Positions 1 to 14,947 of a DNA stretch of 31,904 nt are shown here, piece by piece (the stretch's first letter is position 1; each line of letters starts with the position of its first letter). The notes under the pieces are model-generated. The model had not been told where the DNA came from. It searched no databases and was given only the letters and a program-made list of their open reading frames with translations. The position numbers were made by a program, and so were the translations under genes. Source of the DNA: a virus. The stretch covers positions 1-31,904 of IMG/VR virus record IMGVR_UViG_3300036979_000040. One strand, written 5' to 3'.

Positions 1-127
1 GAATTGGCCCCAACTATGGATGCGGGTTGTTGTGTAAATGTAAAACTCATCTTTTGAATAGTCCTTTTTGAATGTCTTGTTTCATCGCCTTGGTTAATGC
101 CTTATTGAACGATGGTAAAATTTGTTT
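1..127. repeat. Terminal direct repeat, copy 1 (circular overlap)
   Basis: These 127 bases are identical to the last 127 bases of the window. The copy holds the 3' end of the neck protein gene and the first codons of the upstream tail protein gene, so it joins the two ends without breaking a gene. A length of exactly 127 fits the overlap left by a k-mer assembler on a circular or permuted molecule. It is more likely an assembly overlap than a biological terminal repeat. Confidence 0.95.
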
Positions 128-598
128 TCTGGCTTCGGCTACAAACGGGAATGGGGTGATACCGAAATACTTTATTTTACGATTCATCATAAACCGCATG
201 GCGTTTTCGTCTGCCTTGCCTTTGAATCTTCCCGTTCCCATATCGCGTGGTTGGATGCGTTTCATCTTGGTCCAATTACGCATTGCATCAAGTGGAATCC
301 CTTTGCCTGGCTTCCTTCCCCTTTGCACATAATCGGCCGTCTTGTTCATACTGATGCCCAATGTCAAACCATTCGGATCGGCTTGGATGGAATTAACCAA
401 TTGACCACTTGCCACATAATTACCACGGAATGTCTTTTTGGTTGCTGAAACCACTTGCCATCCACCACCAACCTTTTTCCACTTGGCACGGATTGAAACA
501 CGGGGCCGTTTTACCTCCAACATGGAACGACAAGCAATCGCCCACTTCTTGGAATAATCCGCAACCACGGCAACGCTATTCTTAAACGCAATCGCCAT
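47..598 (-). CDS. HK97 gp10-like neck / tail completion protein
   Basis: This 183-residue basic protein has the look of the HK97 gp10-like family, which sits at the head-tail junction or completes the tail. Visible family-like features are the GQLVNSI segment near residue 66, the ADYVQRGRKPGKGIP segment around residues 88-102, and a C-terminal region with FGITPFPFV and regularly spaced Lys. It overlaps the 163-residue gene upstream by 17 bases. Its TGA overlaps the ATG of the next tail gene (ATGA) once the circle is closed, so translation of the two is probably coupled. The family call comes from remembered motifs and context. Confidence 0.6.
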   Translation of the reverse strand: MAIAFKNSVAVVADYSKKWAIACRSMLEVKRPRVSIRAKWKKVGGGWQVVSATKKTFRGNYVASGQLVNSIQADPNGLTLGISMNKTADYVQRGRKPGKGIPLDAMRNWTKMKRIQPRDMGTGRFKGKADENAMRFMMNRKIKYFGITPFPFVAEARKQILPSFNKALTKAMKQDIQKGLFKR

Positions 599-1073
599 CA
601 GTAACCCACGGGTTGATTAAATCAATTGTGACTTGTATTTGATATCCCGCCAATACGCTATCCATCGTTTCAACGAATGGTTGGAAGTTAATGGGGCGTT
701 GAAATTGGATTTGGTTGTAATTGTCTTGTTCTAACAACCACAATCCTTTTGACATTTGCACATACATTTCTTGTAAAATGTAGGCATAGTTTTCATTCTC
801 CGTGTACCCGTATTTGTCATAAACTTGGATAAGGTTTCTTTGTTCGTTCTCCGTTTTCAAAAAGTTGACACGATCCGCCACCATGACATTCATCGTTACC
901 GATGCTATTTGGTCGGTCAATGCCACATTTTGAATTGAGCAATGCATCAACGGAAATACCGTGAATGCCTTAAAATCAAACTCCGTTAATGTTCCGTGTG
1001 AATAATTCCACCCTTCCGCCGTGGCGATGTCTTTGAATACCTTGAATGCGGTTCCTATGTGATTATTTGTCAT
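582..1073 (-). CDS. Probable tail terminator-like / virion assembly protein
   Basis: This 163-residue protein lies between the tail chaperone and the gp10-like neck protein. The central segment VTMNVMVADRVN followed by a helix-rich stretch resembles tail terminator or tail completion proteins of phages of Bacteroidota, which cap the tail tube before head joining. It has no signal peptide or membrane segment. It overlaps the chaperone gene by 11 bases upstream and the neck gene by 17 bases downstream, so it belongs to the same translationally coupled block. The function is inferred from position and general appearance only. Confidence 0.45.
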   Translation of the reverse strand: MTNNHIGTAFKVFKDIATAEGWNYSHGTLTEFDFKAFTVFPLMHCSIQNVALTDQIASVTMNVMVADRVNFLKTENEQRNLIQVYDKYGYTENENYAYILQEMYVQMSKGLWLLEQDNYNQIQFQRPINFQPFVETMDSVLAGYQIQVTIDLINPWVTDGDCV

Positions 1074-1809
1074 CGCTTGTAACTTTGCTTAATAATTTTT
1101 TGTTCCATTTCCGCAATGTCACTTTCGTAAGCGGTGAAGTACAAAGCGGTGTGAATGGTTTTAGAATACACATTTTCCAATTGTAGGAAATTTCTTCCAG
1201 AGAGTCGATAGACCATTCCAAACCATCCCCATTTTTTGGTAAGGCGGTTTTCATCTGCTGACCCTTCTCCCCCTCCAAATACTTCTGGATAGAATTCAGT
1301 AAGTCGATTCCTAAACTCCAAAAAAAAACCATGGCCCCGAATGTGGTGTTGCAATCCAAATCTTTGAACCCCGTGACAAGGTTTGCCGAATAGGGTGCAA
1401 CCTCATATCTTCCGTTCTGTCCGCTATGCGTAATGGGGCGATATAAAACACTCATCACCTTCCAAAGGTCGTGTTTCTCCTTGCAGTAATTTTCAATGTC
1501 TATAAACTCACCCACGGACATATCATCCAAGTTTGGGATGAATCCGTATTCCACGCCATCCATTTTGAACCTGGGCGTGAACTCGGGTTGTTCTGTCAAC
1601 ATTAATGTGATGCGTTCAACCGCCTTTTGTAATACATCAAACGGCATGGCCATAACCTCGGTCATGGTCAACTCACAAAATATAGACACGGCTTCCAATT
1701 GTCGTTGGGTATCATCCATCTCGGGTTTGAGGGATTCATACGCCAACATTTGATGCAATTTTACATCTTTTAACGATGTGGGTACTAATATGGTTTTCGA
1801 TTCAATCAT
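1063..1809 (-). CDS. Tail assembly chaperone, zero-frame product
   Basis: The 248-residue zero-frame product lies upstream of the tape measure in transcription order and looks like the N-terminal part of lambda-type tail chaperones (gpG-like), which coat the tape measure protein during tail assembly. After about residue 192 the zero frame continues for some 56 codons, first in a protein-like way (NGDGLEWSIDSLEEISYNW), later with less typical composition. A second frame opens across the same DNA and carries a more convincing C-terminus, described separately. Both products probably share residues 1-192. The start is the ATG at 1809, close behind the DnaA-like gene. Confidence 0.6.
   Translation of the reverse strand: MIESKTILVPTSLKDVKLHQMLAYESLKPEMDDTQRQLEAVSIFCELTMTEVMAMPFDVLQKAVERITLMLTEQPEFTPRFKMDGVEYGFIPNLDDMSVGEFIDIENYCKEKHDLWKVMSVLYRPITHSGQNGRYEVAPYSANLVTGFKDLDCNTTFGAMVFFWSLGIDLLNSIQKYLEGEKGQQMKTALPKNGDGLEWSIDSLEEISYNWKMCILKPFTPLCTSPLTKVTLRKWNKKLLSKVTSDDK
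1070..1809 (-). CDS. Tail assembly chaperone, predicted -1 frameshift product (246 aa)
   Basis: Shifting back one base at the A AAA AAT heptamer (1237-1231) joins zero-frame residues 1-192 to 54 residues of the -1 frame. The join reads LPKKWGWFGMVYRLSG and continues to a TGA at 1070-1072. The extension, with WGWFGMVYRL and TALYFTAYESDIAEMEQ, reads as real protein and resembles the T-domain part of tail chaperones in Bacteroidota phages. Lambda G/GT is the known parallel: one ribosome fraction shifts and makes a longer chaperone that recruits the tail tube protein. The two isoforms here would be almost equal in length, which is unusual. Frameshifting is inferred from sequence, not shown. Confidence 0.6.
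1231..1237 (-). other. Candidate -1 ribosomal slippery site
   Basis: On the minus strand the heptamer A AAA AAT lies across zero-frame codons CCA AAA AAT. It fits the X XXY YYZ rule, and both tRNAs can re-pair in the -1 frame (AAA AAA). The -1 frame becomes convincingly protein-like right after it (KKWGWFG). I see no strong downstream stem-loop by eye. Confidence 0.5.
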
Positions 1810-1838
1810 CTATTATAAAACGATTGAATGCGGGTTTG

Positions 1839-2324
1839 TTATTCCAACGCATCATTCAACAACACACACACTTTTGCGTATTGCCTTTGTACCTCCTTAT
1901 CGGTGTACAAAATGTTACTAAACTCCTTCACCGAATTGATGGCCGTGGAATGGTCACGATGGATGATCCGCCCAATTTCCGCCCATGGCATCCCTAACCT
2001 TTTACGGCAAATAAAGTTGAACATGTGCCGTGCGTATAACGATGCCCGTTTCCGTGATGGGCAAAGTATTTCATCGGGTGTTAACTCGGTGACTGTGCAA
2101 ACGGCCCGTAATACTTCCTTCCAATGGTTGGGGGAATCGTTAAAATCAATACGGGGATTAATTATTTCCTTTCTTAACAATTGGATTTTGGTTAGGGCTT
2201 CACTTTGTATTTGAACCAACAACAATCGTAATCGTTTAATCTCTTGTCGTTGTAGGTGTAATTGCTGGTAATGGCTTGTCATATCGTTTACAAAGGTACA
2301 TATAAACAAGTAATAAACAATCAT
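1839..2324 (-). CDS. DnaA domain IV-like DNA-binding protein
   Basis: The C-terminal ~85 residues match the DNA-binding domain IV of the bacterial initiator DnaA. They include helices around RHMFNFICRKRLGMPWAEIGRII and the signature-like HRDHSTAINSVKE. There is no AAA+ domain; the N-terminal half is charged and helical, likely coiled coil (HYQQLHLQRQEIKRL). In DnaA this domain binds DnaA boxes, so the protein may bind the phage origin, compete with host DnaA, or recognise packaging sites given its position behind TerL. The ATG at 2324 overlaps the TerL stop (ATGA). An alternative ATG at 2282 lies 8 bases below a promoter-like TACCTTTG, and would remove an odd hydrophobic N-terminus. Confidence 0.75.
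   Translation of the reverse strand: MIVYYLFICTFVNDMTSHYQQLHLQRQEIKRLRLLLVQIQSEALTKIQLLRKEIINPRIDFNDSPNHWKEVLRAVCTVTELTPDEILCPSRKRASLYARHMFNFICRKRLGMPWAEIGRIIHRDHSTAINSVKEFSNILYTDKEVQRQYAKVCVLLNDALE
2291..2320 (-). promoter_or_regulatory. Possible Bacteroidota-type promoter for the DnaA-like gene
   Basis: TACCTTTG (2298-2291) fits the -7 element TAnnTTTG, with TTG (2320-2318) 19 bases upstream as a partial -33 element. It lies inside the 5' end of the DnaA-like frame and would serve the internal start at 2282. It could arise by chance in AT-rich DNA. Confidence 0.3.
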
Positions 2325-3518
2325 CGGATGTCGTATTGCCCAAAGTTTGAACGAATCCCCAATGCCATCATTTCATGATATCGCCAACTGTCAATTGCGT
2401 GGTCTGTACCCGTTGGGGTGTTGGTTGTTCGCCCCTGGGAATCCGTATCCCAACAATAATTACGCAACTCTTTGATTAGGTTCACGCTTGTGGATGTCAC
2501 CAAATAGGATTGGGATTGCATAATTTGTATTCCATAGTTGATACTATCTTTGCCTTTGGTTACTCCCTTGATTCTCACACCATACCTCCGTATCTCGTCT
2601 ATTGACTTTGGTTCGGCACTATCTGCGTAAACGGGTACGAAGGTGGGCAACGCCTTTGCAATATCTGAATTAAGCATTCCCGTGCGATATGCCACTTCAT
2701 CAACGATTCTTTGACCATTGTATTCATAAACGGCAACGATGGCCGTAGGGTCGTTTGTATACCCGAAATCCACCCCAATGCCAACCAACCTTGCATCCTC
2801 GGGTAATGTATCGATGGTTTGCCAATTGCTGAATATAACCCCTTGTAAGTTTCCAATCTCGCCAAGACCATACACCCGCCACCAATTGGCCCAATAATTA
2901 GATGTTGACGCCCTATCCCGTGCCTTTTCAATTTCCGTGACGATTGACTTATCCAACGCTTCGTTGTCTTTGTAGGTGAGTACAATCATTTCCGCATCGG
3001 GGTCGTGTACCAATTCGCTATCCACCCAGAACTCCGCCACGGGGTTGTAATCCAAGTATATGAATTTGCGGGTACGAATTGCCATTTGGTAGTATGATTC
3101 CCAATCAATGTTATTGCACTCGTTGACAAATAACACATCACGCCTTGCACCCCTTAACTTTTGGGGTTGGTCTGCACTAAAGAACTCAATGTAACTGTCA
3201 TTGCTGAAGGTGTATGTCAATGATGATTTATTCCATTTCAATGGATCAAACATACCCACCATGTCCATAATCTTGAGAAAGTCACGGATTGCACCCCTTC
3301 GCAAATGCGGGATGGTTTCCGATACCACAGATATTTCACACTTTGCGTTTTGCACCGCGTATGTGATAAGCATTGGAATAATGCTGAATGTTTTAGAATT
3401 ATCACCCCCACCACCGAAGCAATGGGGGTTAAACCGAGGAAGATGTACCACCGCGGACAATACGGATTCTCTTCCTCAATTTTGCTATTTTAATTTGAGC
3501 AGTTGTTTGTTGTAGCAT
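2321..3518 (-). CDS. terL: Terminase large subunit (TerL), reading frame interrupted by a 40-nt gap in the Walker A motif
   Basis: TerL is the packaging ATPase and headful or end-cutting nuclease. Piece one runs from ATG 3518 to a TAA at 3431-3429 and reads KIAKLRKRIRIVRGGTSSSV. Piece two resumes at the Lys codon 3394 in another frame (KTFSIIPMLITYAV). Joined after the third Ser, they restore the P-loop GGTSSSKT and a normal N-terminus, giving 385 residues. Downstream are a Walker B-like VLFVNEC and RNase H-like nuclease Asp residues in GVDFGYTNDP, YADSAEP and GTDHAIDSW. Without joining, piece two could start only at the non-ATG codon TTG 3460, giving the odd loop GGGGDNSKT. TerL is essential in this kind of phage, so the break is likely bridged during expression rather than disabling. 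The start overlaps the end of the HNH gene by 29 bases. Confidence 0.85.
3395..3434 (-). other. Candidate translational bypass element in terL (40-nt coding gap with UUCG hairpin)
   Basis: The gap starts after TCT TCC TCG (3443-3435) and ends with TCT just before AAA 3394. GTT and a stop TAA follow the last upstream Ser codon. At the foot of the stop begins an 11-bp stem, ACCCCCATTGC (3429-3419) pairing with GTGGTGGGGGT (3414-3404), with three wobble pairs and a TTCG tetraloop closed by C-G. GATAAT then leads to the TCT landing candidate. Ser codons at both edges allow peptidyl-tRNA take-off and re-pairing. T4 gene 60 has the same parts: matched codons, an adjacent stop, a hairpin in a 50-nt gap and a homing endonuclease next door. 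The size of 40 is not a multiple of three, so simple readthrough cannot restore the frame. Confidence 0.7.
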
Positions 3519-4086
3519 ATTCCCATTTGTAATTGTAAGCCGTTTTGTATCGTTTGCGTTTTTTACAACAACCGATAATTCCAACGCTATTAAATCCTAA
3601 TTCTCTTTTGACTGTGTTAATTGATTCCCATGTTTTCACGAATGTACCATCCTTTTCGTATTGATTGATTGGTATTGAACAATTACTATCTTTTCCCATC
3701 GGTGCTTTTTGTAATCCCAAACGGAATGCGTGTAATTGATTTTCACGGCTTGTAACCCATTCCAAATTTGAACAATGGTTGTTTTCTTTGCATCCATCAA
3801 TGTGGTTTACTTCTGGTTTGTTTTCTGGGTTCTCAACAAATGTTTTTGCAACTAATCGATGAACAATGTAATACTTCCGTACTCCATCCTTAAATAATTT
3901 TACTTGCCAATACCCATTGGATTTCAAACTTTGTTTGATGTACTTCAATTTGCCATCGCTTGTGAACGACTTGCCATTCCCCCATGAATAAACATCCCCA
4001 TAGATTGTAATTGAATACAACCCTTCGTATCCTGGTATGTCAAATAAAACATCCCCATGAATTGTTTTTGCCTTATCGTGAATCAT
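3490..4086 (-). CDS. HNH homing endonuclease with NUMOD4 and NUMOD1 domains
   Basis: A free-standing homing endonuclease of about 198 residues. The N-terminus has a NUMOD4-like DNA-binding motif (IPGYEGLYSITIYGDVYSWG). The middle has the HNH_3 type nuclease HRLVAKTFVENP...VNHIDGCKENNHCSNLEWVT with its His and Asn residues. The C-terminus is NUMOD1-like (INQYEKDGTFVKTWESIN... ending YKWEYA). Such enzymes cut alleles lacking the element and spread by repair. It sits between the terminase subunit genes and its last codons overlap the terL start. Its own promoter lies 4 bases above the ATG at 4086, predicting a leaderless mRNA. An ATG at 4101 is in frame but inside the promoter. Its likely target is the uninterrupted terL P-loop region (inference). 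Confidence 0.85.
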   Translation of the reverse strand: MIHDKAKTIHGDVLFDIPGYEGLYSITIYGDVYSWGNGKSFTSDGKLKYIKQSLKSNGYWQVKLFKDGVRKYYIVHRLVAKTFVENPENKPEVNHIDGCKENNHCSNLEWVTSRENQLHAFRLGLQKAPMGKDSNCSIPINQYEKDGTFVKTWESINTVKRELGFNSVGIIGCCKKRKRYKTAYNYKWEYATTNNCSN

Positions 4087-4090
4087 ATTA

Positions 4091-4122
4091 CAAATATACA
4101 TTTGTTTTGTATGTTTTACAAC
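4091..4122 (-). promoter_or_regulatory. Promoter of the HNH homing endonuclease gene
   Basis: TATATTTG (4098-4091) is a full match to the Bacteroidota -7 element TAnnTTTG; GTTG (4122-4119) lies 20 bases upstream as a -33 element. The ATG at 4086 follows after only 4 bases, so transcripts would be leaderless or nearly so. Confidence 0.6.
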
Positions 4123-4154
4123 CCCCTTATCCTCCCCTAACTATTCGGATGCGT

Positions 4155-4541
4155 TTACGAAGTCGGGCTATCTTCGCCTGGGCGGTCGTCGTTTGTAACA
4201 TCCAAGTTTATACCATTGAAAATCGGTTTCTCTTTTTCCTCCATTACATTGTGGCTCATAGATAGTTTGCGGAGTTCTTCTTCGCTACTTATCAATTTCA
4301 TTAACGCCAATTGTAATGTGGGTTGCTCACTCAAATACCATTTGGAACGCATAGATACTTTGATGTTGGTTTTGATTTCCAACAACGCCTCTTTTATGCT
4401 TTCCGATTTTTCCAAGCCCAGGTGGTAAAATGTGCTACTTGTACATGGTAGGTATGCAATTACATCTTGAATAAAAAACAATTTGTTTTTCTTTATTGCG
4501 GCGATGGCCGTTGCTTCTAATTCGTTTCTATCGTATGCCAT
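4155..4541 (-). CDS. terS: Probable terminase small subunit
   Basis: This 128-residue protein lies one gene upstream of TerL in transcription order, separated only by the homing endonuclease. It starts MAYDRNELEATAIAAIKKNKLFFIQDVIAYLPC, which reads as an N-terminal helix-turn-helix for recognising the packaging site. A conserved-looking stretch MRSKWYLSEQPTLQLALMKLI follows, typical of small terminases of Bacteroidota phages, and then an acidic disordered tail. It would bind phage DNA and load TerL. Its ATG overlaps the stop of the preceding 65-residue gene (TAATG). The call rests on family appearance and synteny. Confidence 0.75.
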   Translation of the reverse strand: MAYDRNELEATAIAAIKKNKLFFIQDVIAYLPCTSSTFYHLGLEKSESIKEALLEIKTNIKVSMRSKWYLSEQPTLQLALMKLISSEEELRKLSMSHNVMEEKEKPIFNGINLDVTNDDRPGEDSPTS

Positions 4542-4738
4542 TATTCCATTTTTTCAATTTCTTCTTTGACTTCAAAAAGATACAACGCTTTGTCCAATGA
4601 TTCGTTCAAATCCCCTGTGATAAATTCTTTTGCAAAATCAATCGCAATTACCGCACATTGGATTCCTTCGTTGCGTTGTTGCAACCCAACCACGGTGAAT
4701 TTGTCAACCAGTTCTTTCGCTTTGTCTTTTGGTGTCAT
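4541..4738 (-). CDS. Small phage protein of unknown function (65 aa)
   Basis: The protein is short, helical and charged, starting MTPKDKAKELVDKF, a beginning seen in many small early phage proteins of Bacteroidota phages. A central CAVIAIDFAKEFI helix is followed by an acidic C-terminus. No catalytic motif, membrane segment or signal peptide is visible. It is coupled by TAATG overlaps to the DUF551-like gene upstream and the small terminase gene downstream. The function is unknown. Confidence 0.65.
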   Translation of the reverse strand: MTPKDKAKELVDKFTVVGLQQRNEGIQCAVIAIDFAKEFITGDLNESLDKALYLFEVKEEIEKME

Positions 4739-4920
4739 TATTCATCGGGGGTTAGTGGTATTGGCATCCAGTAAACCACATGTAATCTTTGATCGGTGTG
4801 TGAGCAATGCCATTGCCCGTCATAGTAAGTAGCCACAAAGGGAATCCCCGCTTCGGTGTGAACCAATACGGGGTGTCCTTCTTCGGGTAATGTTCGTTCA
4901 ATCTTCCTCCATGCTTTCAT
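4738..4920 (-). CDS. DUF551-like protein (60 aa)
   Basis: The pattern W-x2-I-x4-P-x2-G-x-PVLVHTEAG...YYDGQWH...VVYWMPIPLTPDE fits the DUF551 family of small phage proteins, whose role is unknown. Full family length is about 60 residues, so the protein looks intact. It overlaps the 101-residue gene upstream by 23 bases and touches the gene downstream by TAATG. It is probably cytoplasmic. Confidence 0.7.
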   Translation of the reverse strand: MKAWRKIERTLPEEGHPVLVHTEAGIPFVATYYDGQWHCSHTDQRLHVVYWMPIPLTPDE

Positions 4921-5203
4921 CGTGTTTCTGTGCTTCTTCGTAAGTTTCGTAAAATGTTTCTTCGCCGTTGTTCAAATCTGTTACCAAAAATTCAACCGCT
5001 CTGCCAAGGTTTGAGCAAATTGAAATACCATCTTCAAGGGCTATGTAAACATAACCCGAATTTGGGTTAAATCCAACTTCCATAATTTCTGCCCTTGAAC
5101 ATTCATTGGCATAAGCCATGAACACTTTTGATAATCCTTTTGCTTCGCAGTAGGCAATTGATCCGTCGATTCCGTTGATTGTAATTGTGTTTGTCATATT
5201 CAT
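4898..5203 (-). CDS. Small acidic phage protein of unknown function, leaderless candidate
   Basis: This is a 101-residue protein with an acidic C-terminus (EETFYETYEEAQKHDESMEED) and no known motif. It is the first gene behind a very good promoter, whose TATCTTTG ends 4 bases above the ATG at 5203. The mRNA would thus be leaderless. A second ATG in frame at 5197 is also possible. It probably begins the transcript that runs through the small genes towards the terminase. Confidence 0.65.
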   Translation of the reverse strand: MNMTNTITINGIDGSIAYCEAKGLSKVFMAYANECSRAEIMEVGFNPNSGYVYIALEDGISICSNLGRAVEFLVTDLNNGEETFYETYEEAQKHDESMEED

Positions 5204-5207
5204 AATG

Positions 5208-5239
5208 CAAAGATAGTGTTTTATATTTGAAATACCAAA
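5208..5239 (-). promoter_or_regulatory. Bacteroidota-type promoter with palindromic element
   Basis: TTTG (5239-5236), 20 bases, then TATCTTTG (5215-5208) is a full consensus match. The -33 element lies inside ATTTGGTATTTCAAAT (5240-5225), an inverted repeat ATTTG-6-CAAAT found identically in the promoter at 14948-14978. The position suits repressor or activator binding. Confidence 0.75.
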
Positions 5240-5252
5240 TTATTTTTAATAT

Positions 5253-6053
5253 TTATTTTAGGCCCACAAATGCTTTCAGCGGATAAAACACCAAACTATT
5301 CCTATAACCCCCTTCGTGCGTTGGGATAATTGGTGTAACTCCATGCACATTTTTCCATGCGGGGTAAACTAACATTGAGTTATCCGCGCTATCCATAACG
5401 GCCCCATAATCTGGCACATATAGATTCCCCCCTTTGGCGTTCAAACGCTTCGTGATAATCACATTTACCGCTCCAATTATATTACCCGTATCTCGATGGA
5501 AAGGTGCTGATATATTGTAGTTCGAAATAGATGAGGTAAAAAGATTCGCGAACTTCCATTGGTCGGGTACTTGCTCAAATAGTTTCTTTTGACGTTCGTA
5601 TTGTTCTGGAAGTATATCGTGCATGATTGATTCGCTTTCCTTTGCTAACATCAACATTGCTTTAATAAAGTTTTGGGCCGTTTTGTTTTGATGCACGCTA
5701 CTTATTGTTGGATACGGCCTTCTTACCATTGGCTTTGGGGCTACCGAACCTAAAATACAACTCATTTGGCTGACATCAGCAACATCACCCGATCCTTCCC
5801 ATTCTGTTTTTAACATACCTTTTACTGCGGTCAAACGATTCAGAACCGCTTTTGGAACTCTATCGCTTTGAAATTCTGCGTTGGCTAAATTGGCTAACTT
5901 TGTTGCCCTTTCGGGCATTGACTTAATGTAAAACCCAATTGGTTCACCGTTCTCATAGAAAATGCAATCTTCGGTAATGTTTGGGGCCAGGTATGGGCAA
6001 TCTTGCCCAATCTTTGCTTCGTGTGGTTGTAACACAAGGTCTACGCGTTTCAT
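5253..6053 (-). CDS. TET/JBP-type 2-oxoglutarate/Fe(II) dioxygenase
   Basis: A 266-residue protein whose C-terminal half carries the double-stranded beta-helix core of the TET/JBP group. The HxD motif is APFHRDTGNIIGAVNVI (H186, D188), the distal iron ligand is H237 in KNVHGVTPI, and the 2-oxoglutarate Arg is R251 in YRNSLVFYP. Eukaryotic relatives oxidise 5-methylcytosine or thymine in DNA, and phage members have been shown to make 5-hydroxymethylcytosine. It follows a glycosyltransferase and a ParB-like gene, the partners described for phage base hypermodification systems. The likely role is oxidising a methyl group on phage DNA for later sugar attachment. I see no cytosine methyltransferase gene, so the substrate base is open. 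Confidence 0.8.
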   Translation of the reverse strand: MKRVDLVLQPHEAKIGQDCPYLAPNITEDCIFYENGEPIGFYIKSMPERATKLANLANAEFQSDRVPKAVLNRLTAVKGMLKTEWEGSGDVADVSQMSCILGSVAPKPMVRRPYPTISSVHQNKTAQNFIKAMLMLAKESESIMHDILPEQYERQKKLFEQVPDQWKFANLFTSSISNYNISAPFHRDTGNIIGAVNVIITKRLNAKGGNLYVPDYGAVMDSADNSMLVYPAWKNVHGVTPIIPTHEGGYRNSLVFYPLKAFVGLK

Positions 6054-6766
6054 ATGGCTTTGCTTTTGTATTTTTTATCTGTGAATTTTGGTTCGTGTTT
6101 CCATGGTTTGTCGGGCTTTGATATTACCTCAATCGTAGAATCCAACGCCTTAAAGATTTGTATTTCTCGTTTGGCCATTTCGCTTCGATCAAACATTTGA
6201 AGCCCACCATTCCCGCCACCAACTGGGGCGCATTTAATTTCGTGTTTGCTACAATATAATGTTTTTTCACCGTTCAAAATGATTTGCATAAATTGAAAAA
6301 AATCTTCAAAGGTGCTAACATCTGCACTTGGGCGATACTTGTCTGTCTTGATGAAATATGCAGTTTGTATTCTTTTGTTTTCCCTTGTAAACATTTTTGG
6401 TGTCTTGGCGTAAAATTCAAAGTGATACGGAAAACTAATAGCCGAAACCTGGGGTATTGACATCGCTTTGGATATTTTATCTAAATCATTTTCAATTTGC
6501 CCAACTCCTTGTACATCGTCATCAATCTTAAATATGACATCGTATCCATTTTGTTTGGCGTAATTCTTACATGATAATAACGCACCCCCTAAACCGATGT
6601 TGTTTTTGTCGTGTTGCACTACATTTGAGTATTTGCTATACGATTGATAATCTTGTGGTTCTACAAATATCTTGTAATCTAATTGTAGGCGTTGCATAAA
6701 TGGCATAGTGTATTTCGCAATGTTGCCTGGCCTTCCTTTGGATGGTATACAAACCAAACACCTCAT
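6050..6766 (-). CDS. TET/JBP-associated DNA glycosyltransferase candidate (TAGT-like)
   Basis: This 238-residue GT-A-fold protein starts MRCLVCIPSKGRPGNIAKYT, with FVEPQDYQSY near residue 35 and a metal-binding acidic motif FKIDDDVQG (D82-84). A Gly-rich PVGGGNGGLQMFDRSEM stretch lies in the acceptor half. This layout fits the glycosyltransferases that travel with phage TET/JBP oxygenases and add sugars to oxidised bases. It overlaps the dioxygenase gene by 4 bases downstream and the ParB-like gene by 4 bases upstream, so the three are coupled. A sugar donor specificity cannot be read from the sequence. Confidence 0.75.
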   Translation of the reverse strand: MRCLVCIPSKGRPGNIAKYTMPFMQRLQLDYKIFVEPQDYQSYSKYSNVVQHDKNNIGLGGALLSCKNYAKQNGYDVIFKIDDDVQGVGQIENDLDKISKAMSIPQVSAISFPYHFEFYAKTPKMFTRENKRIQTAYFIKTDKYRPSADVSTFEDFFQFMQIILNGEKTLYCSKHEIKCAPVGGGNGGLQMFDRSEMAKREIQIFKALDSTIEVISKPDKPWKHEPKFTDKKYKSKAI

Positions 6767-7338
6767 AACTTATCTTTTTCTTCTTTGAGATACATCATAA
6801 TCATTTGGCCGACATAGGCCCCGCGTTCACGCCAAAACTTCACCAATTGGTACGCTTCTTCGTAATGGTCTGGTTCAAACTCAATTTGGATGGCTTTCTT
6901 TACCCCATCGGCCATGTCCGAAAGTTCGTCGGATAAATCTTCCTCATCCAAAAGTGAGTAATCCACCTCAACGGGTTGTTGCCAAACATCCAAACCCCAC
7001 GCGTTTAACAATTCTGGTTCCCATTCGTTGGCTAAAATGTCCCAATCCCATTCTCCGAATCCGACATTGTCCTTAATGATAAACTCTTTTTGTTGTTCTT
7101 CGGTTAAATCGGATGCCTTAATGATTGGAACTTCTTTTAATCCAACTTCTTGCACCGCTTTTAATCTCATGTTGCCACCCAAAACAACCATATCATCATT
7201 CACCACGATTGGGCGTAGATTCAACATTTGCGGGAACTCCTTAATTGATTTAACTAACTTCTTGAATTTATCATCTTTTATAACCCTTGGGTTGTTTTCG
7301 TTGGCGATGATGTCCTTTGTTTTAACAATTTGTATCAT
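6763..7338 (-). CDS. ParB-like N-terminal domain protein
   Basis: The first ~90 residues form a ParB/Sulfiredoxin-type fold. They carry an NPR motif (residues 16-18), VVLGGNMRLKAVQEVGLKEVPII with GGNMR at 54-58, and a following helix EEQQKEFIIKDNVGFGEWDWD. The C-terminal half is acidic and helical, without the HTH of chromosomal ParB. Related phage proteins act as nucleases, NTP-binding switches or, in modification gene clusters, partners of base-modifying enzymes. Its coupling to the glycosyltransferase suggests the last role, though it could also serve packaging or replication. Confidence 0.75.
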   Translation of the reverse strand: MIQIVKTKDIIANENNPRVIKDDKFKKLVKSIKEFPQMLNLRPIVVNDDMVVLGGNMRLKAVQEVGLKEVPIIKASDLTEEQQKEFIIKDNVGFGEWDWDILANEWEPELLNAWGLDVWQQPVEVDYSLLDEEDLSDELSDMADGVKKAIQIEFEPDHYEEAYQLVKFWRERGAYVGQMIMMYLKEEKDKL

Positions 7339-7586
7339 TTGTTTAATTTTATTTGGTGTGTTATAATTAAAAAATCCATGTGTTGTTTCTTATCGCCGTA
7401 TTTAATGTGGCAAGGTCGACAAAGTGCTTGTAAATTCTCGATGACATCCTTTTTGGTTGTGCCTCCCATTCCCCGTGGTTGGATGTGGTGGATATCAATT
7501 GCCTTAGATCCGCACACCTCACACGGGATAAAATCGGTTGTGTCATAACCAAAGTATGTTAAATAAATCTTTGTGTGTGGCTTCAT
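7335..7586 (-). CDS. HNH endonuclease domain protein (83 aa)
   Basis: A single-domain HNH protein: zinc pair CEVC, then DIHHIQPRGMGGTTKKDVIENLQALCRPCHIKYGD, which contains the His-His catalytic pair, the Asn of ENL and the second Cys pair CRPC. It lacks NUMOD domains, so it is less likely a homing enzyme. Such short HNH proteins occur in phage replication or packaging gene blocks and nick DNA or cut branched structures. It overlaps its neighbours by 4 bases downstream and 44 upstream. Confidence 0.8.
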   Translation of the reverse strand: MKPHTKIYLTYFGYDTTDFIPCEVCGSKAIDIHHIQPRGMGGTTKKDVIENLQALCRPCHIKYGDKKQHMDFLIITHQIKLNK

Positions 7587-7770
7587 CTTTTATGGCTTGT
7601 AAATATAGTTCATTGCATACCCTTGGGTTCATTCCCATTGATATTCCCACTTGTTCCCAGGTCTTGCCCATGTCCTCGCGTAGAATCATGATTGCGTACT
7701 TCTTAGCAAGGATTTGACTGCGTCTAACCACGGCCCCCATTTTGCTCGGTCTTGAAATTGTTGTCTGCAT
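7543..7770 (-). CDS. Small helix-turn-helix-like protein
   Basis: A protein of about 75 residues whose core, GKTWEQVGISMGMNPRVCNELYLQAI, looks like a helix-turn-helix. It is preceded by a basic stretch (MGAVVRRSQILAKKYA). It may bind DNA as a small regulator. Starts at 7779, 7770 and 7740 are all in frame; I chose 7770, but 7740 gives less overlap with the zinc-ribbon gene. No strong ribosome binding site decides among them. Confidence 0.5.
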   Translation of the reverse strand: MQTTISRPSKMGAVVRRSQILAKKYAIMILREDMGKTWEQVGISMGMNPRVCNELYLQAIKDEATHKDLFNILWL

Positions 7771-7886
7771 TTTATACACATATAAATTTGGTTCGGTTCG
7801 ATATTCGGCCCCGTTTCGTTAATAAGTTCTTTTGTTGATTCCGTGTAATGGTCGCAACAATCACAAAGGTTTCTCGTAAGTTTCAT
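7686..7886 (-). CDS. Small zinc-ribbon-like protein
   Basis: This protein of 66 residues has CDCC near residue 8 and CIKC near residue 37, a spacing fitting a zinc ribbon. Its 3' third overlaps the HTH-like gene by about 85 bases in another frame, so one of the two may be shorter than drawn. It overlaps the gene upstream by 26 bases. The function is unknown; a nucleic acid or protein contact role is likely. Confidence 0.5.
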   Translation of the reverse strand: MKLTRNLCDCCDHYTESTKELINETGPNIEPNQIYMCIKCRQQFQDRAKWGPWLDAVKSLLRSTQS

Positions 7887-8268
7887 ACACCTGGGTCAAC
7901 TCGTTAATCATGGTTTGCCACGCCTTTGGGTTGCAACTGCATGGTTTGTAAATTCGCTTGGATCGGAATATCCGCGACCATATCTCCGCTATCTTGGTTG
8001 CCTCCATCGGTGCAAGGGTCGTGTTATTCACGGTCTTGAAATGTGTCCACCATTCGTATTCGTGTTCTGTCATACACAATGGTTGACGGCTTGGGAATAA
8101 CTTGTTTAGTTTGTGCTTCCGTTCTGTGCAACCACAATCTTCTCCGCCGATAAATTTGGCAAGTGCTTCAATCCCCGTGGCTTTCGTTACCTTCTGAATC
8201 GTATCCCCCAACCCGATGGATGGTCGTGATTCTGTAAATTGTTTCCGTGTTTCGCTTTTCTTCGGCAT
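7861..8268 (-). CDS. Conserved phage protein with Cys-rich motif, unknown function
   Basis: The protein has 135 residues. It reads GLGDTIQKVTKATGIEALAKFIGGEDCGCTERKHKLNKLFP, a motif I associate with conserved hypothetical proteins of Bacteroidota phages. Another Cys pair is CSCNP near residue 113. The CGC and CSC motifs could bind a metal. No enzymatic motif is recognised. The start at 8268 lies inside the 3' end of the sigma-like gene, in another frame. Confidence 0.6.
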   Translation of the reverse strand: MPKKSETRKQFTESRPSIGLGDTIQKVTKATGIEALAKFIGGEDCGCTERKHKLNKLFPSRQPLCMTEHEYEWWTHFKTVNNTTLAPMEATKIAEIWSRIFRSKRIYKPCSCNPKAWQTMINELTQVYETYEKPL

Positions 8269-8809
8269 ATATTTGGTATTTTGTCTTTGTTCTTTGTTTT
8301 ATGAATTGTTTGGCGTTTTTGATTGAGTTAAAAACACTATGCGTTGGAATGCCCGTGCGTTTTTCAATGTCCCTCATCGAATGTCCGTACACAAAATGTA
8401 ACTCCAATAACATCTGGTCGTAATCCCGTAACTCATCAATTGCTTTTTTCACTTCGTCCATCAACGCCCCGTGGGCATATTCAGCCATTTCTGGGCTCTC
8501 TACGGGGTTGAATTGGTCTTGGTGTGGTATTGTCTTGTTTTCTGCTCTTTTGATGTCTATAAACGCATTGTGTATCATCTTGAATAAATAGATGGTATTG
8601 ATGGTTCCGTTGTAATTGGCGAATCTATCCAATGACCCTTCCTTTAATTGTATTTCCCCCAACTTCAAATACATCGTTTGGATGATATCATCAATCTCAT
8701 CGGGCTTTGCACCAACATATTTTGATATTTTAACCCACTCAACATGGCGTTTGGCGATATCTTCAAGAGTTATCAAAGTATGATTCGATTTGCAATTTGA
8801 AATCCTCAA
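8168..8809 (-). CDS. Sigma-70 family (ECF-like) RNA polymerase sigma factor candidate
   Basis: At 213 residues the protein has a region 2-like segment (KPDEIDDIIQTMYLKLGEIQ, FANYNGTINTIYLFKMIHNAFIDIKR) and a region 4-like HTH (LLELHFVYGHSMRDIEKRTGIPTHSVFNSIKNAKQFIKQR). Two-domain size fits ECF sigma factors. It could direct host RNA polymerase to late phage genes, which are the tail, head and lysis blocks that lack obvious TAnnTTTG promoters. The last ~33 codons overlap the next gene. The 5' end overlaps the VRR-NUC gene by 47 bases, so an internal start is possible. A related small HTH DNA-binding role cannot be excluded. Confidence 0.6.
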   Translation of the reverse strand: MRISNCKSNHTLITLEDIAKRHVEWVKISKYVGAKPDEIDDIIQTMYLKLGEIQLKEGSLDRFANYNGTINTIYLFKMIHNAFIDIKRAENKTIPHQDQFNPVESPEMAEYAHGALMDEVKKAIDELRDYDQMLLELHFVYGHSMRDIEKRTGIPTHSVFNSIKNAKQFIKQRTKTKYQIYAEEKRNTETIYRITTIHRVGGYDSEGNESHGD

Positions 8810-9116
8810 ACGAATATACCATTACATATTGATAATTCATTGCTTCAACAATCAATTGCCACTTTTTTTGATGCTCTGATTGTTTGTTTGGTTTGATTTT
8901 TAATTCAAGGAATAACCCGTGGTATTTTGTGTTGGGCATGAATAACACCAAATCCGAAACACCTGGGACAACTCCCTCCGCTTTTAACCTTTGGGCCGTA
9001 AATAAATCGCGTGATCCACCATTGGGGACATGGATTAACAATTCCCCGAATTGGCGGTATTGCAGTCGGAACCACTTAACACACGCAACTTGCATACGGC
9101 TTTCCAAATGTTTCAT
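8763..9116 (-). CDS. VRR-NUC domain nuclease
   Basis: This protein of 117 residues is one complete VRR-NUC domain of the PD-(D/E)XK fold. Visible motifs are HVPNGGSRD (29-37), LKAEGVVPGVSDLVLFMP with catalytic Asp 55, LFLELKIKP with Glu 71 and Lys 73, and the Gln 83 of EHQKKW. Phage members are structure-specific nucleases thought to act in replication or recombination intermediates. It is coupled by ATGA to the 59-residue gene upstream and overlaps the sigma-like gene downstream. Confidence 0.9.
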   Translation of the reverse strand: MKHLESRMQVACVKWFRLQYRQFGELLIHVPNGGSRDLFTAQRLKAEGVVPGVSDLVLFMPNTKYHGLFLELKIKPNKQSEHQKKWQLIVEAMNYQYVMVYSFEDFKLQIESYFDNS

Positions 9117-9292
9117 TCTGCGTCTAAATAGATTGATTTGGCTTTTGCGAATCCTCGGTTATACCACCATTGGGCGTGGATTTTTTCATCCCGTTTTAAT
9201 TCGTGGAATAAATCCGTGGGGATGGTGATGTCGTGGTTTATCTGCAACCATTCAATCAACTGGTCTATGGGTGTAATTTCTTCGTTTAACAT
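9113..9292 (-). CDS. Small phage protein of unknown function (59 aa)
   Basis: The 59-residue frame starts at ATG 9292, which overlaps the TAA of the preceding gene (TAATG), and ends in TGA overlapping the VRR-NUC start (ATGA). The sequence MLNEEITPIDQLIEWLQINHD... AQWWYNRGFAKAKSIYLDAE is rich in Trp and charged residues and looks like a folded helical protein. These perfect couplings make it real; the function is unknown. Confidence 0.65.
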   Translation of the reverse strand: MLNEEITPIDQLIEWLQINHDITIPTDLFHELKRDEKIHAQWWYNRGFAKAKSIYLDAE

Positions 9293-9531
9293 TATTTGTC
9301 TTTTGTTTCAATTGCATTTTTGATGGACATAGTCATGTAATCCAACGCCCGTTTGTAACCTTCCCTATAACCATCGGAGTAACTCATTTCCCTACCCATA
9401 ATTTCTATTTCACTCGCTTGTTCCAAAAGAGTTTCATGTTTGTATTTTCCTTCGTAGGTCGTTTGATTAACCTTGATGATTTGGTGTTCAATCAATTTGT
9501 CAAGAAACCATTTAACGCTTCCACTATTCAT
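9292..9531 (-). CDS. Small phage protein of unknown function (79 aa)
   Basis: The start is ATG 9531 because GGAGGTAACA stands directly before it, a rare strong Shine-Dalgarno in this genome. An ATG further upstream at 9567 is not needed. The protein starts MNSGSVKWFLDKLIEHQ and later has ASEIEIMGREMSYSDGYREGYKRA. Its N-terminus resembles that of the next gene upstream (SSIEWLIEQL), suggesting two diverged copies of a family common in small phage genes. The function is unknown. Confidence 0.6.
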   Translation of the reverse strand: MNSGSVKWFLDKLIEHQIIKVNQTTYEGKYKHETLLEQASEIEIMGREMSYSDGYREGYKRALDYMTMSIKNAIETKDK

Positions 9532-9784
9532 TGTTACCTCCGTATGTTTCGTTGTAAAATTGCCCAAATGTCTTTATGATGCCTTCTTCACGCAATACAT
9601 AATCTTCGTATGCATAATACAATTTTATAGTTTCCTCTTTGTGCATTGCGTTGGCTTTTTCATGTTTCTCTGTTAATACCCAACTTTGTATTTTAATTAC
9701 ATAGGTATCATCTTCATTAGAAAAATCATATTCTTTAAGTTGTTCAATCAACCATTCAATACTACTTTGTTTATTGTTGGTCAT
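9524..9784 (-). CDS. Small phage protein of unknown function (86 aa)
   Basis: It opens MTNNKQSSIEWLIEQLKEYDF and continues with KANAMHKEETIKLYYAYEDYV, a pattern (SSIEWLIEQL then MHKEEI) seen in many small early proteins of Bacteroidota phages. It is acidic and helical with no membrane segment. It shares the N-terminal pattern with its downstream neighbour. It overlaps that gene by 8 bases and follows the 100-residue gene by 3 bases. Confidence 0.6.
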   Translation of the reverse strand: MTNNKQSSIEWLIEQLKEYDFSNEDDTYVIKIQSWVLTEKHEKANAMHKEETIKLYYAYEDYVLREEGIIKTFGQFYNETYGGNNE

Positions 9785-9787
9785 TGT

Positions 9788-10090
9788 TCAATATCCTAAA
9801 TCCTTTTTTACAATGCTTTGTTTTGCTTGGCGTTCGTTGTACTTCTTCCCACGCAATTCGGGCGTTTCTTCTTGCACATGTCGGCGAACCCGTGTGATGG
9901 TGTCGGATGATGTTAACCGACCCACGGCCATTAATTTTAAGAAGATTTTTGCGGGGGTATTGGTAGGGGGGTAACCCATTGCCTCCATTTCTAAATTCCA
10001 ATACCATGCAACCAATTGTTGGTCGTTGTCCTTGAAGTCGGCGTATTGCTTTAATAAGTCAATCACCGTTTGTTTGATATCCATTTTCAT
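9788..10090 (-). CDS. Conserved replication-region protein of unknown function (100 aa)
   Basis: Directly behind the helicase gene, this protein carries the stretch LTSSDTITRVRRHVQEETPELRGKKYNERQAKQS..KDLGY. This combination of a small helical domain with basic residues often lies near replication genes in phages. It may bind DNA, but I do not know a tested function. The start may be ATG 10090 or 10084; both are near a weak promoter-like sequence. Confidence 0.6.
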   Translation of the reverse strand: MKMDIKQTVIDLLKQYADFKDNDQQLVAWYWNLEMEAMGYPPTNTPAKIFLKLMAVGRLTSSDTITRVRRHVQEETPELRGKKYNERQAKQSIVKKDLGY

Positions 10091-10101
10091 ATTTGTCGAT
10101 A

Positions 10102-10132
10102 CAATATTAATATTTTAATTTCAAAATTCAAA
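10102..10132 (-). promoter_or_regulatory. Weak promoter candidate behind the helicase gene
   Basis: TTTG (10132-10129), 19 bases, then TAATATTG (10109-10102), one mismatch from TAnnTTTG. It lies at the end of the helicase gene and would serve the 100-residue gene and those after it. The DNA is AT-rich, so chance is a real possibility. Confidence 0.35.
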
Positions 10133-11389
10133 GGGGGATGAAATTTTTGGTTCTATATTTTCGCGGTACAAAGTGCGGTTACCGATGTATGTGGTTGGGA
10201 TGATACTGCATTCCCCGTGTCGGTTCTTGGCAATTATCAATTCCGCATCCTCGATTTCGGGTTGCATCTGTTCGTATTTAGCGGGTCGGAACGGGAACAT
10301 CACCACATCGGCATCTTGTTCAATGGCACCCGATTCTCGAATGTCACTTAACATTGGGCGTTTGTCGGCCCTATCCTCTGGCTTCCGTGATAACTGTGCC
10401 AACACAATAACCGTGATTTGTAATTCCTTGGCTAACAATTTAAGGCCACGGGATATCTCCGCGATTTCTTGTTCGCGGTTTTGTTTCGATCCCTTCATCA
10501 ACTGAATGTAATCGATGACCAATAAATCCAACCCGTGTTTTGCTTTGTGTATTTTTGCCTTGGATTTTATTTGTTGAATGGATGCGTTTGGTTCCTCGTC
10601 TACAAAAAATTCCACTTGGCTTTTGTTTACCGAATCGCACAATTGAATTACCTCATGTTCCTTTAATGTGGCGTTGCGTATCTTCCAATTCACAATGTCG
10701 GTTATCAATGAAAAATATCGCTTTGCCAATTGTTCGGAACTCATTTCCAAACTGATAATCAAACCTTTGCCACCCAACTTTCCAAACTCATGAATAAGCG
10801 ATAAAGCCAATGCAGTTTTTCCCATCCCTGGTCGTGCAGCCATTACGATTAAATCACCCGCGTTCCATCCCCCTAATATTCTATCCAATGACTTCCACCC
10901 CGTTGGTTTACCCGTTATACTTACACCACGGGCAATGGCTTCTGTTATGTTGTCCAATGCGGTTGCACTCACCTTGTGTATTGAAACGGGGTCGTGTATT
11001 GTTGTGAACTGCGTGTTGTCAATTACATTCTGGGCTTGAATAATCAAGTTGGGCAAATCAGTTGCAAAATCTAACTTTTCAATTTCCTCGATGAATTGCT
11101 TTTTCAAAAACTTTTGTTCCAACTTGGGTAAATACGAAGGAACATTAAATGCGTGGTAAACATCGTTTCCAACGCGAACCATCCACGCGATTTGTTCTCG
11201 TGTCAATCCTTTGGATAAACTCATGTAATCGATTGGATCGTTGTTGAAATACTTTTCAATCATTTGTTCCACGATGTGTTTGTGCAAAATCCCTTCAAAC
11301 CAATTGGGCTTGATGCGTGGCAAAAGTGCCTGGGCTTGTGGGTAATACAATAATTGCCCCAAGATATAATCCTCGATATTGTCATTCAT
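10121..11389 (-). CDS. dnaB: Replicative DNA helicase, DnaB type
   Basis: The protein, 422 residues from ATG 11389, has the DnaB layout: an N-terminal helical domain (DNIEDYILGQLLYYPQAQ), a linker, then a RecA-like ATPase. Walker A is AARPGMGKTALAL near residue 190, the Walker B region is LDLLVIDYIQLM, and SREQEIAEISRGLK-like, VLAQLSRKPEDR and SDIRESGAIEQDADVVMF motifs follow, with an Arg finger region in KNRHGE. It unwinds the phage fork, loaded by the initiator encoded just upstream. The ATG at 11389 lies at the stop of that gene; an in-frame ATG at 11398 is possible. Confidence 0.95.
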   Translation of the reverse strand: MNDNIEDYILGQLLYYPQAQALLPRIKPNWFEGILHKHIVEQMIEKYFNNDPIDYMSLSKGLTREQIAWMVRVGNDVYHAFNVPSYLPKLEQKFLKKQFIEEIEKLDFATDLPNLIIQAQNVIDNTQFTTIHDPVSIHKVSATALDNITEAIARGVSITGKPTGWKSLDRILGGWNAGDLIVMAARPGMGKTALALSLIHEFGKLGGKGLIISLEMSSEQLAKRYFSLITDIVNWKIRNATLKEHEVIQLCDSVNKSQVEFFVDEEPNASIQQIKSKAKIHKAKHGLDLLVIDYIQLMKGSKQNREQEIAEISRGLKLLAKELQITVIVLAQLSRKPEDRADKRPMLSDIRESGAIEQDADVVMFPFRPAKYEQMQPEIEDAELIIAKNRHGECSIIPTTYIGNRTLYRENIEPKISSPFEF

Positions 11390-12038
11390 AGTCCGCAATG
11401 TTAAATCTTTTTTGTGTTGGTTGTGTCGCGGTGGCGGTTTTTAAGTTTCCATCCTTCCAGGTACTAACACACGCCTTCCAATTCTTAATTGAGTTTTTGC
11501 CAATCATCCACCCCTTCGCTTCATAAAAATTGTAGAAACGCTCCGACACATTGTTCATTCCTTTTTCTTCCATATAAAGGGCAATTTCTTCAATGGTTGG
11601 TTTCTTAAATTTCGTATCTTTTTCTTGTTCTTCTTCTTCTTCTTGTTCTTGTTCTTCTTGTGATGCAGTATACATACCGTTTACATACTCTATCAATACT
11701 CTATCCTTAACAACGCAAAGTTCTGATTTTATGCAACTTACAACTTTTGGTGATGTTGACCCGTTATATTTTAACCAATTCTTCAATGCAACCTCTTTTG
11801 TTGTTTCTGAATATAGTATTTTGCCCACTTTTATAAAGTATGCAAGGAGTTTGGATACTCTATCAATACTGTATCCAAGTTCAAACGCCATTTGTTTTTT
11901 ACTTATTTCGTAAATACCACATTGTTTGGTTCGTTCGTTGGTCAATAAATACAAATAAAATAAACGATGGTCGTTGTCAAGGTCTTGAATAAATGGATCA
12001 CTCCAAAACGATGTGTGGATTTTTCTAAAAATTGCCAT
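11382..12038 (-). CDS. Replication initiator / DnaD-like helicase loader candidate
   Basis: This 218-residue protein has an N-terminal winged helix (FRKIHTSFWSDPFIQDLDNDHRLFYLYLLTNERT, then ISKKQMAFELGYSIDRVSKLLAYF). A low-complexity acidic linker follows (EEQEQEEEEEQEK near residue 132), and the C-terminal segment is FYEAKGWMIGKNSIKNWKACVSTWK. The ending fits DnaD/DnaT-like domains that bind ssDNA and load DnaB. Its position immediately before the helicase supports that. It probably acts at the phage origin. Confidence 0.75.
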   Translation of the reverse strand: MAIFRKIHTSFWSDPFIQDLDNDHRLFYLYLLTNERTKQCGIYEISKKQMAFELGYSIDRVSKLLAYFIKVGKILYSETTKEVALKNWLKYNGSTSPKVVSCIKSELCVVKDRVLIEYVNGMYTASQEEQEQEEEEEQEKDTKFKKPTIEEIALYMEEKGMNNVSERFYNFYEAKGWMIGKNSIKNWKACVSTWKDGNLKTATATQPTQKRFNIADYE

Positions 12039-12040
12039 GA

Positions 12041-12553
12041 TTAAAATCCCTCATTTTTTAACTGATATCCACTTTGACTTTTGAATGTCAAACCATCAAT
12101 TGTATATTCATATGTCATAAAACTAATTGTACCATTAGTATATGGTTCATTACAAAATGACTCAATTCCTAACATATCTGTTATAAAGCAAAATGAACCA
12201 GTTGTATCAAGGCTCCGACCAATCAATACCAAATTAATGATGTATCTTTTTTCTTTCTTTTTTCGATGTAAATACATTTGAATTCCTTTTACATAATGTA
12301 ATGCTTGTAAAAATGAAGCAATTCCAATGTGTTCTTTTTTTAATTCATAAACCGTAATAACACCAGGAATAAAAATATCCCTATCTGGTCCATCATAACA
12401 TGGTCTTGTGAATTCCACCAAATCAGCAATTCCATAATTGCCAATTCTTAATTGTCTAAACAGTTTACCATTCATAGGTAATCCTTTTTCGTCTAATGAA
12501 TCCCTTCCAGATTCAAAGATGATTTGTTCCAAATCTTTTTCTAAAAATTTCAT
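12041..12553 (-). CDS. PD-(D/E)XK-like nuclease candidate
   Basis: The 170-residue frame begins at ATG 12553, chosen because the region above it (12553-12655) looks like a structured leader rather than protein. The motif GNYGIADLVEF supplies an Asp and ITVYELKKEHIG an E-x-K, spaced as in PD-(D/E)XK nucleases. A helix with FLQALHYVKGIQMYLHRK follows. It may be a phage nuclease acting on host or phage DNA; it could also be a nonenzymatic relative. It leads the replication gene block. Confidence 0.5.
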   Translation of the reverse strand: MKFLEKDLEQIIFESGRDSLDEKGLPMNGKLFRQLRIGNYGIADLVEFTRPCYDGPDRDIFIPGVITVYELKKEHIGIASFLQALHYVKGIQMYLHRKKKEKRYIINLVLIGRSLDTTGSFCFITDMLGIESFCNEPYTNGTISFMTYEYTIDGLTFKSQSGYQLKNEGF

Positions 12554-12621
12554 AAAATAAAACCCCACTAAGTAAGTGACCGTCGGATGGAACACAAACT
12601 TAATGGGGTAAACGCCTTTGT
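12554..12621 (-). promoter_or_regulatory. Structured leader with terminator-like hairpin before the nuclease-like gene
   Basis: On the minus strand CCCCATTAAG (12608-12599) pairs with CTTAGTGGGG (12572-12563), 10 bp including one G-T wobble and a 26-base loop. TTTTATTTT leads directly into the ATG at 12553. The pairing is complete only in minus-strand RNA, since on the plus strand the wobble becomes a C-A mismatch. It resembles an attenuator or a start-region switch. Confidence 0.4.
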
Positions 12622-12654
12622 AACTTTGGAATATCCGACATTCCGTTAACACCA

Positions 12655-12688: not shown

Positions 12689-12719
12689 ATCCGTTTGTTA
12701 TTTGTCATATCATAGGATT

Positions 12720-13635: not shown

Positions 13636-13646
13636 ATCTGTTTATT

Positions 13647-14726: not shown

Positions 14727-14740
14727 GTTATTTGTCTTTT

Positions 14741-14943: not shown

Positions 14944-14947
14944 ACCA

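Follow-up and report, generated by a model that had tools for sequence, protein, structure and literature searches.

Two described DNA modification pathways join a TET/JBP dioxygenase to a glycosyltransferase, as does a three-gene ParB, TAGT and TET cassette in the IMG/VR virus record IMGVR_UViG_3300036979_000040, analyzed here over its whole 31,904 bases (the window). Iyer 2013 is said to have predicted TET/JBP, TAGT and ParB as phage associates; Pfam's full name for TAGT is "TET-Associated Glycosyltransferase," and the label "thymidine hydroxylase" is already in annotators' use. In the phage pathway of C5-cytosine hypermodification, reportedly the subject of Burke 2021, a C5-cytosine methyltransferase is co-encoded with TET, and the window departs from that layout in having none. 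Kinetoplastid base J, with JBP1/2 and the J glucosyltransferase, needs no methyltransferase because thymine itself carries the methyl group. The window differs from it in its partners, which are ParB and TAGT in the phage, and in that the phage reaction is predicted from genes; its gene content is compatible with thymine modification of the base J type. Both pathways are touched on in excerpts of PMC12730594.

Among isolated phages, the closest arrangement is that of the Prochlorococcus phages MED4-184, P-HS2 and MED4-117, which like the window place ParB, a variable slot and TET just before the terminase large subunit gene, terL (in MED4-184 the order reads ParB, FkbM, TET, one small gene, terminase). 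The Prochlorococcus phage TET is 47.8% identical to that of the window, and no C5-methyltransferase was found in MED4-184. Unlike the window, these phages carry FkbM rather than TAGT in the slot, so that an O-methylated instead of a glycosylated hydroxymethyl base is predicted. Actinophages (Mycobacterium phage Prince, Rhodococcus phage Tonitrus and Arthrobacter phage Klevey) likewise have a ParB-like gene before TET/JBP and, as in the window, no C5-methyltransferase was found in their sets. Their TETs are only 24-27% identical to the window TET, the window-type ParB tail is missing, and the decorating enzymes (ADDT and kinase, or glycosyltransferase and deacetylase) lie downstream of TET, whereas in the window they lie between ParB and TET. 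Labels in this neighborhood can mislead: TET appears as "queuine tRNA-ribosyltransferase," ParB as "DNA methylase" (CPAG_00033) and ADDT as "DNA glycosylase" in PHROG 6059, in RefSeq records of MED4-184 and mycobacteriophages, and in Prince gene 3. The MED4-184 "DNA methylase" was considered as a clue to a methyltransferase and discarded, being the ParB homologue.

For the window we infer, as the probable reading, a post-replicative DNA hypermodification cassette. ParB would bind or load on phage DNA and its C-terminal tail would bring TET; TET would then hydroxylate an existing 5-methyl group, most likely that of thymine, to give 5-hydroxymethyluracil (5hmU), and TAGT would move a sugar from a nucleoside diphosphate (NDP) sugar to the new hydroxyl. 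The resulting base-J-like glycosyloxymethyluracil would be expected to shield phage DNA against host nucleases. If this is true, hydroxymethyluracil arises in these phages on completed DNA, through a JBP-like enzyme, and not from modified nucleotides, which would provide a prokaryotic counterpart of base J and account for cassettes that lack a methyltransferase.

The three coupled genes are as the sequence-only reading (an earlier note on this DNA) had described them. All lie on the minus strand in the order ParB (6763-7338, 191 aa, a predicted DNA-loading partner), TAGT (6050-6766, 238 aa) and TET (5253-6053, 266 aa, a 2-oxoglutarate- and iron(II)-dependent dioxygenase of the TET/JBP family), with intact reading frames and overlaps of 4 bases between consecutive genes. 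Pfam assigns TET to PF12851 Tet_JBP (E 1.1e-10, 41.4 bits against a cut-off of 34.9) and TAGT to PF20691 (E 1.6e-9, 38.4 bits against 27.5). The iron triad H186, D188 and H237 (HxD...H) and the 2-oxoglutarate arginine R251, which the same reading had named, are present in the TET sequence and invariant in 37 TETs of the window clade, in which catalytic residues stay unchanged down to about 60% identity, and also in 9 divergent TETs including those of actinophages; the TAGT DDD motif (residues 82-84), named there too, is invariant in 20 slot glycosyltransferases. An AlphaFold model of TET (predicted local distance difference test, pLDDT, 79.0) shows a TET-type double-stranded beta-helix matching NgTet1 (4lt5; Z 14.0, root-mean-square deviation (rmsd) 3.1, 201 residues aligned), with TET-family structures filling the top 16 matches and FTO next at Z 9.7. 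The TAGT model (pLDDT 83.7) shows a GT-A fold (6yv7; Z 16.3, rmsd 3.6, 199 residues aligned). Models without iron and sugar sites had been named as an outcome that would speak against the proposal; given the conserved residues, the TET fold and the GT-A fold, that objection fails at the level of sequence and fold. The window dioxygenase is thus a member of the TET/JBP family, with oxidation of a DNA 5-methylpyrimidine as its predicted reaction.

Comparison with relatives shows which parts of the cassette are constant. TET relatives were gathered from IMG/VR and four isolated phages, giving 127 loci with the window included and duplicates removed (of 58 newly added loci, 16 were such duplicates and did not enter the counts); near-identical contigs remain (the 124 rows of the TET tree hold 92 distinct TETs), the tree is of a quick type without bootstrap, and many records are fragments, which makes absence counts soft and weighs against any argument from missing genes. 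With a hidden Markov model (HMM), ParB is detected ahead of TET at 107 of the 127 loci; among the other 20, 16 offer less than 1 kb of upstream sequence, three actinophage loci (L083-L085) carry a gene annotated as ParB-like one or two genes before TET, and the last is L055. Between this constant pair lies a swappable decorator slot. In the 107 cassettes it holds a glycosyltransferase of the TAGT cluster (61, by single-linkage BLAST, with scanned members falling on both sides of the TAGT cut-off), an FkbM methyltransferase (PF05050; 25, MED4-184 among them), ADDT/kinase-type genes (9), a family of about 300 aa (8; without Pfam or PHROG match, glycosyltransferase-like by eye only) or nothing (4). 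Five of the glycosyltransferase slots add a sulfotransferase and one a nucleotidyltransferase-like fusion. All nine ADDT-type slots (ADDT being the Pfam name of PF18724) carry a P-loop kinase, and four also a glutamine amidotransferase (GATase) and a GNAT; a 338-aa member is labeled ADDT-type by BLAST cluster only, since Pfam gave no match. In the window itself, Pfam scans found no 5hmU DNA kinase or ADDT, in contrast to those nine of 107 slots. One relative (L046, 4127-5923) encodes a 598-aa protein adjoining TAGT, with a weak nucleotidyltransferase-like Pfam match and still weaker kinase- and HAD-like ones; from its sequence it might be an NDP-sugar maker.

The TET tree requires 25 changes of slot class, where shuffled labels average 41.2 (minimum 36); the slot is therefore partly inherited and often exchanged. 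The window and L003 have TETs 88% and ParBs 91% identical and glycosyltransferases only 23% alike. Example pairs with TETs 93-96% identical include FkbM in L037-39 against a four-gene GATase-GNAT-ADDT-kinase set in L041 (TET 93%), ADDT-kinase in L113 against a glycosyltransferase in L124/L126 (TET 95%), and a glycosyltransferase in L016 against the unrecognized 300-aa family in L018. A count of TET pairs at 80-98.5% identity that differ in slot (194 of 336) is pseudo-replicated and was not used as a test. Sugar, methyl and phosphate/amino-acid decorators are thus all found with a nearly unchanged TET, which makes a common TET product probable. Such swapping in near-identical phages is apparently new, no prior account having been found in the open-licence papers searched, and to our knowledge Iyer 2013 describes neither it nor the enzyme-matched ParB tails discussed below. 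The swapped decorators offer leads to enzymes with new DNA modifications, one of them in cultured Prochlorococcus phages. A second, divergent TET clade of actinophage type (80 loci) has ParB-family genes upstream in 68 loci and, downstream, ADDT, flavin adenine dinucleotide (FAD) and pyridoxal phosphate (PLP) enzymes or a TAGT-like gene.

The sequence-only reading had remarked that no C5-cytosine methyltransferase is recognized in this closed genome. This holds, in that a profile search finds no PF00145 in the window and the 127-base direct repeat at its ends is exact, which closes the genome in that sense. Its suggestion that an unrecognized methyltransferase might be present gains no support, and a hidden enzyme was rejected on the PF00145 search together with Pfam scans of 48 minus-strand open reading frames (ORFs), none of which gave a methyltransferase match (a few ORFs below 75 aa and those of the other strand lay outside the scans). 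Nor do relatives support the view that the absence is an oddity of this phage: 110 of the 127 TET records lack the gene, which occurs in 17 (4/44, 8/41 and 5/42), in 1 of the 20 records of at least 30 kb, and between ParB and TET in none of 107 slots. As a trait on the TET tree it changes 14 times against a shuffled-label mean of 15.7 (minimum 11), which is no signal. A control set of 80 contigs was picked by terL identity to the window (roughly 90% and above) and searched with a C5-methyltransferase HMM built from 10 loci found earlier. Of the contigs that reach 0.9 kb or more past terL, 4 of 8 with TET and 18 of 60 without it have the gene (Fisher p 0.42). Where present in this set (L237-L307) it lies directly 3' of terL, with or without TET; the window has none there. 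Two contigs with identical TETs differ, L036 having the gene and L034 having none over the 10 kb downstream of TET. In the second clade it is found in 7 of the 49 longer records searched. Absence is the family norm for TET loci, and the C5-methyltransferase is, on sequence grounds, an accessory gene with its own slot behind terL, outside the TET cassette.

Oxidation followed by glycosylation of a phage DNA base, as first proposed, remains the best-supported account of the genes, folds and operon-like layout. As for the three explanations offered for the missing methyltransferase, comparative evidence favors the thymine route, keeps host methylation as a possible one and gives no support to an unrecognized enzyme. 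No 5-methylpyrimidine other than thymine is always present in DNA. A hydroxymethylase of the thymidylate synthase type (PF00303) occurs in none of 48 records from both TET clades, leaving TET as the only visible source of a hydroxymethyl group. With the C5-methyltransferase sporadic, no hydroxymethylase and a slot that includes 5hmU-type decorators, thymine to 5hmU is favored over a route from 5-methylcytosine (5mC). In known phages kinase-first chemistry acts on 5-hydroxymethyldeoxyuridine in DNA, according to an excerpt of PMC6449724, and the actinophage-type ADDT/FAD/PLP neighbor set is called thymidine hypermodification in the part of a genome paper seen here (PMC11955845).

Several observations pull the other way, and most of them toward a pathway in which TET oxidizes 5mC made by a host methyltransferase (or, for some relatives, by the phage's own methyltransferase encoded behind terL) and TAGT adds a sugar to the resulting 5-hydroxymethylcytosine, an alternative that is unlikely here though a credible competitor. 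Phage TETs tested in Burke 2021 reportedly oxidize 5mC from phage C5-methyltransferases. The nearest solved folds, NgTet1 and TET2, are 5mC enzymes, and 5mC oxidation by phage TETs is cited in a passage of PMC12730594. The 17 TET records with a C5-methyltransferase fit such a route, and among the nine ADDT/kinase cassettes, the three of L025, L041 and L113 lie in records that hold one, so that ADDT/kinase chemistry might start from 5mC there. Asparagine 191, three residues after the HxD aspartate, was tried as a marker of thymine against 5mC and rejected, as TET2 also has asparagine. Against the 5mC route stand the absence of the methyltransferase from every slot and from 19 of the 20 records of at least 30 kb, the lack of association with TET in close relatives or of signal on the TET tree, and the contigs with identical TETs that differ in this gene; protection through host methylation would, moreover, probably be sparse and host-dependent. 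It is also conceivable that the cassette is inactive, or that the substrate of TET and TAGT is RNA or some other molecule and not phage DNA. Activity is predicted from sequence and models, and a TAGT-type gene can persist without TET, as it does in eight close relatives, which leaves the TAGT gene without a constant link to TET. Invariant catalytic residues down to about 60% TET identity, intact frames, the conserved ParB-TET pairing, and the DNA modifiers (Mom, 7-deazaguanine-type and DNA methyltransferase genes) that occupy the same site in close relatives make this highly improbable.

The role proposed for ParB, guidance of TET in making 5hmU from thymine, draws on its C-terminal tail. The window protein matches PF02195 ParB_N (E 6.3e-7, 29.8 bits against a cut-off of 26.3), an N-terminal domain of the ParB-CTPase type and the only one above cut-off in 191 aa, and also ParB-family chains in the PDB (7bnk, 7bnr and 7o0n, E about 1e-4). 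A canonical partition ParB combines ParB_N with a helix-turn-helix (HTH) domain, a C-terminal dimerization domain and a ParA partner; Pfam finds no HTH in the window protein and no ParA among the matches of the window. In the terL control set the ParB family occurs in 72 of 80 contigs and TET in 11. The 61 TET-less ParB loci, classed by hand from sequence clusters after inspection, are followed by Mom (PF25680) or ABC-GNAT genes in 16, a TAGT-type gene in 8 and QueC/QueD/radical-SAM/FolE in 2; in 14 a DNA methyltransferase domain is fused to ParB, and in 21 nothing is recognized. ParB_N is related across the set and the tail differs. An HMM of the tail (residues 137-191, window 6766-6930 on the minus strand, a predicted TET-specific docking module) matches every TET-associated ParB in both sets (107/107 and 11/11) and none of the 61 TET-less ones; its 17 training proteins belong to the 107, and some TET loci are common to the two sets. 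When the tails were cut and grouped (71 of 72, one lacking the anchor motif), each multi-member group belonged to one enzyme class, the single exception uniting two 7-deazaguanine-type loci with the 21 that have nothing recognized downstream. In two loci, L064 and L138, ParB_N is replaced and the TET-type tail kept. The tail HMM did not find the window-type tail in the second TET clade.

The simplest reading of these patterns is that ParB_N serves as a common DNA clamp and the tail docks the matching enzyme to it. Enzyme-matched ParB tails are apparently new, no earlier account having come to light in the open-licence papers searched, and they touch a published question: PMC12783734, as excerpted, reports ParB-like proteins beside carboxymethyltransferases and calls their role there unknown. 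That statement, together with the annotation of homologues as ParB-like nuclease or partition protein, would suit a ParB that is a mere neighbor with no part in modification, whether the base is thymine or cytosine. This is quite unlikely in view of the 14 close relatives in which ParB_N is fused to a DNA methyltransferase domain, the sorting of the tail with enzyme class, the missing HTH, and a ParB-like ATPase reported in an excerpt of PMC12839542 as assisting DpdA. More broadly, and tentatively, a plug-and-socket rule may apply, in which a shared ParB_N clamp carries a tail or fused domain matched to the adjoining modifier (TET, Mom, TAGT alone or DNA methyltransferase) and phages switch DNA chemistry by exchanging the tail together with the enzyme next to terL; the further decorator slot of the TET version could diversify 5hmU combinatorially, with base-J-like glycosylated DNA and 5-methoxymethyl-uracil DNA among the predicted products.

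The TET-less loci have some features of their own. A TAGT-type gene stands behind ParB in eight records without TET (L245, L270, L272, L273, L274, L277, L283 and L289), and the ParB in most of them has a distinct tail type; PF12851 was not found in these records, a search in which control genomes gave no signal either and for which a local HMM is the second basis. Mom-family genes (PF25680) follow ParB in L238, L243, L288 and others, and ABC-ATPase/GNAT genes in L242 and L287, while L299 and L301 hold in the ParB-terL interval a 7-deazaguanine-type set of QueC, QueD, radical-SAM and FolE with a TGT-like gene.

The window gave no Rfam match, and megablast of its bases 1-20000 against isolated phages matched nothing. 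In cells the TET clade was seen at 4 loci only, in metagenome-assembled genomes from three dissimilar groups, which point to no single host. Elsewhere in the window, a GIY-YIG/NUMOD3 homing-type endonuclease is encoded at 17034-17729 (minus strand), and the product of a gene adjoining terL (1839-2324, minus strand) bears the C-terminal HTH of bacterial DnaA.

The terL gene itself (2321-3460, minus strand; PF04466 and PF17288), which anchors the control set, is interrupted. Its Walker A codons are split by 40 nt at about 3398-3437 (minus strand), 1.8 kb from the cassette, and the insert contains a stop codon and a hairpin with a UUCG loop (minimum free energy -19 kcal/mol, z -2.0, computed on a near-identical relative). 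Among 83 terL loci an insert is present in 15 (nine of 40 nt, five of 39 and one of 34) and absent from 62, with 6 unreadable; a pattern scan found it in 34 contigs, 27 times at the terL site and 7 times elsewhere. Downstream of the insert, 358 codons stay open in all insert-bearing terLs examined except one that runs off its contig. Because inserts of 39 and 40 nt both occur, one plain frameshift is ruled out as an explanation; most 39-nt inserts have TGA immediately before the downstream frame. Two copies of the terL N-terminus occur in 5 of the 83 loci, including the window, where they start near 4201 and 3518 (minus strand) with an HNH/NUMOD4-like gene between them (3490-4101, minus strand). 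In T4 gene 60, a homing endonuclease accompanies a 50-nt translational bypass, according to an excerpt of PMC5009743. The terL insert and its adjoining HNH homing endonuclease resemble that arrangement, and by this analogy the 39/40-nt hairpin insert looks like a candidate translational-bypass element.

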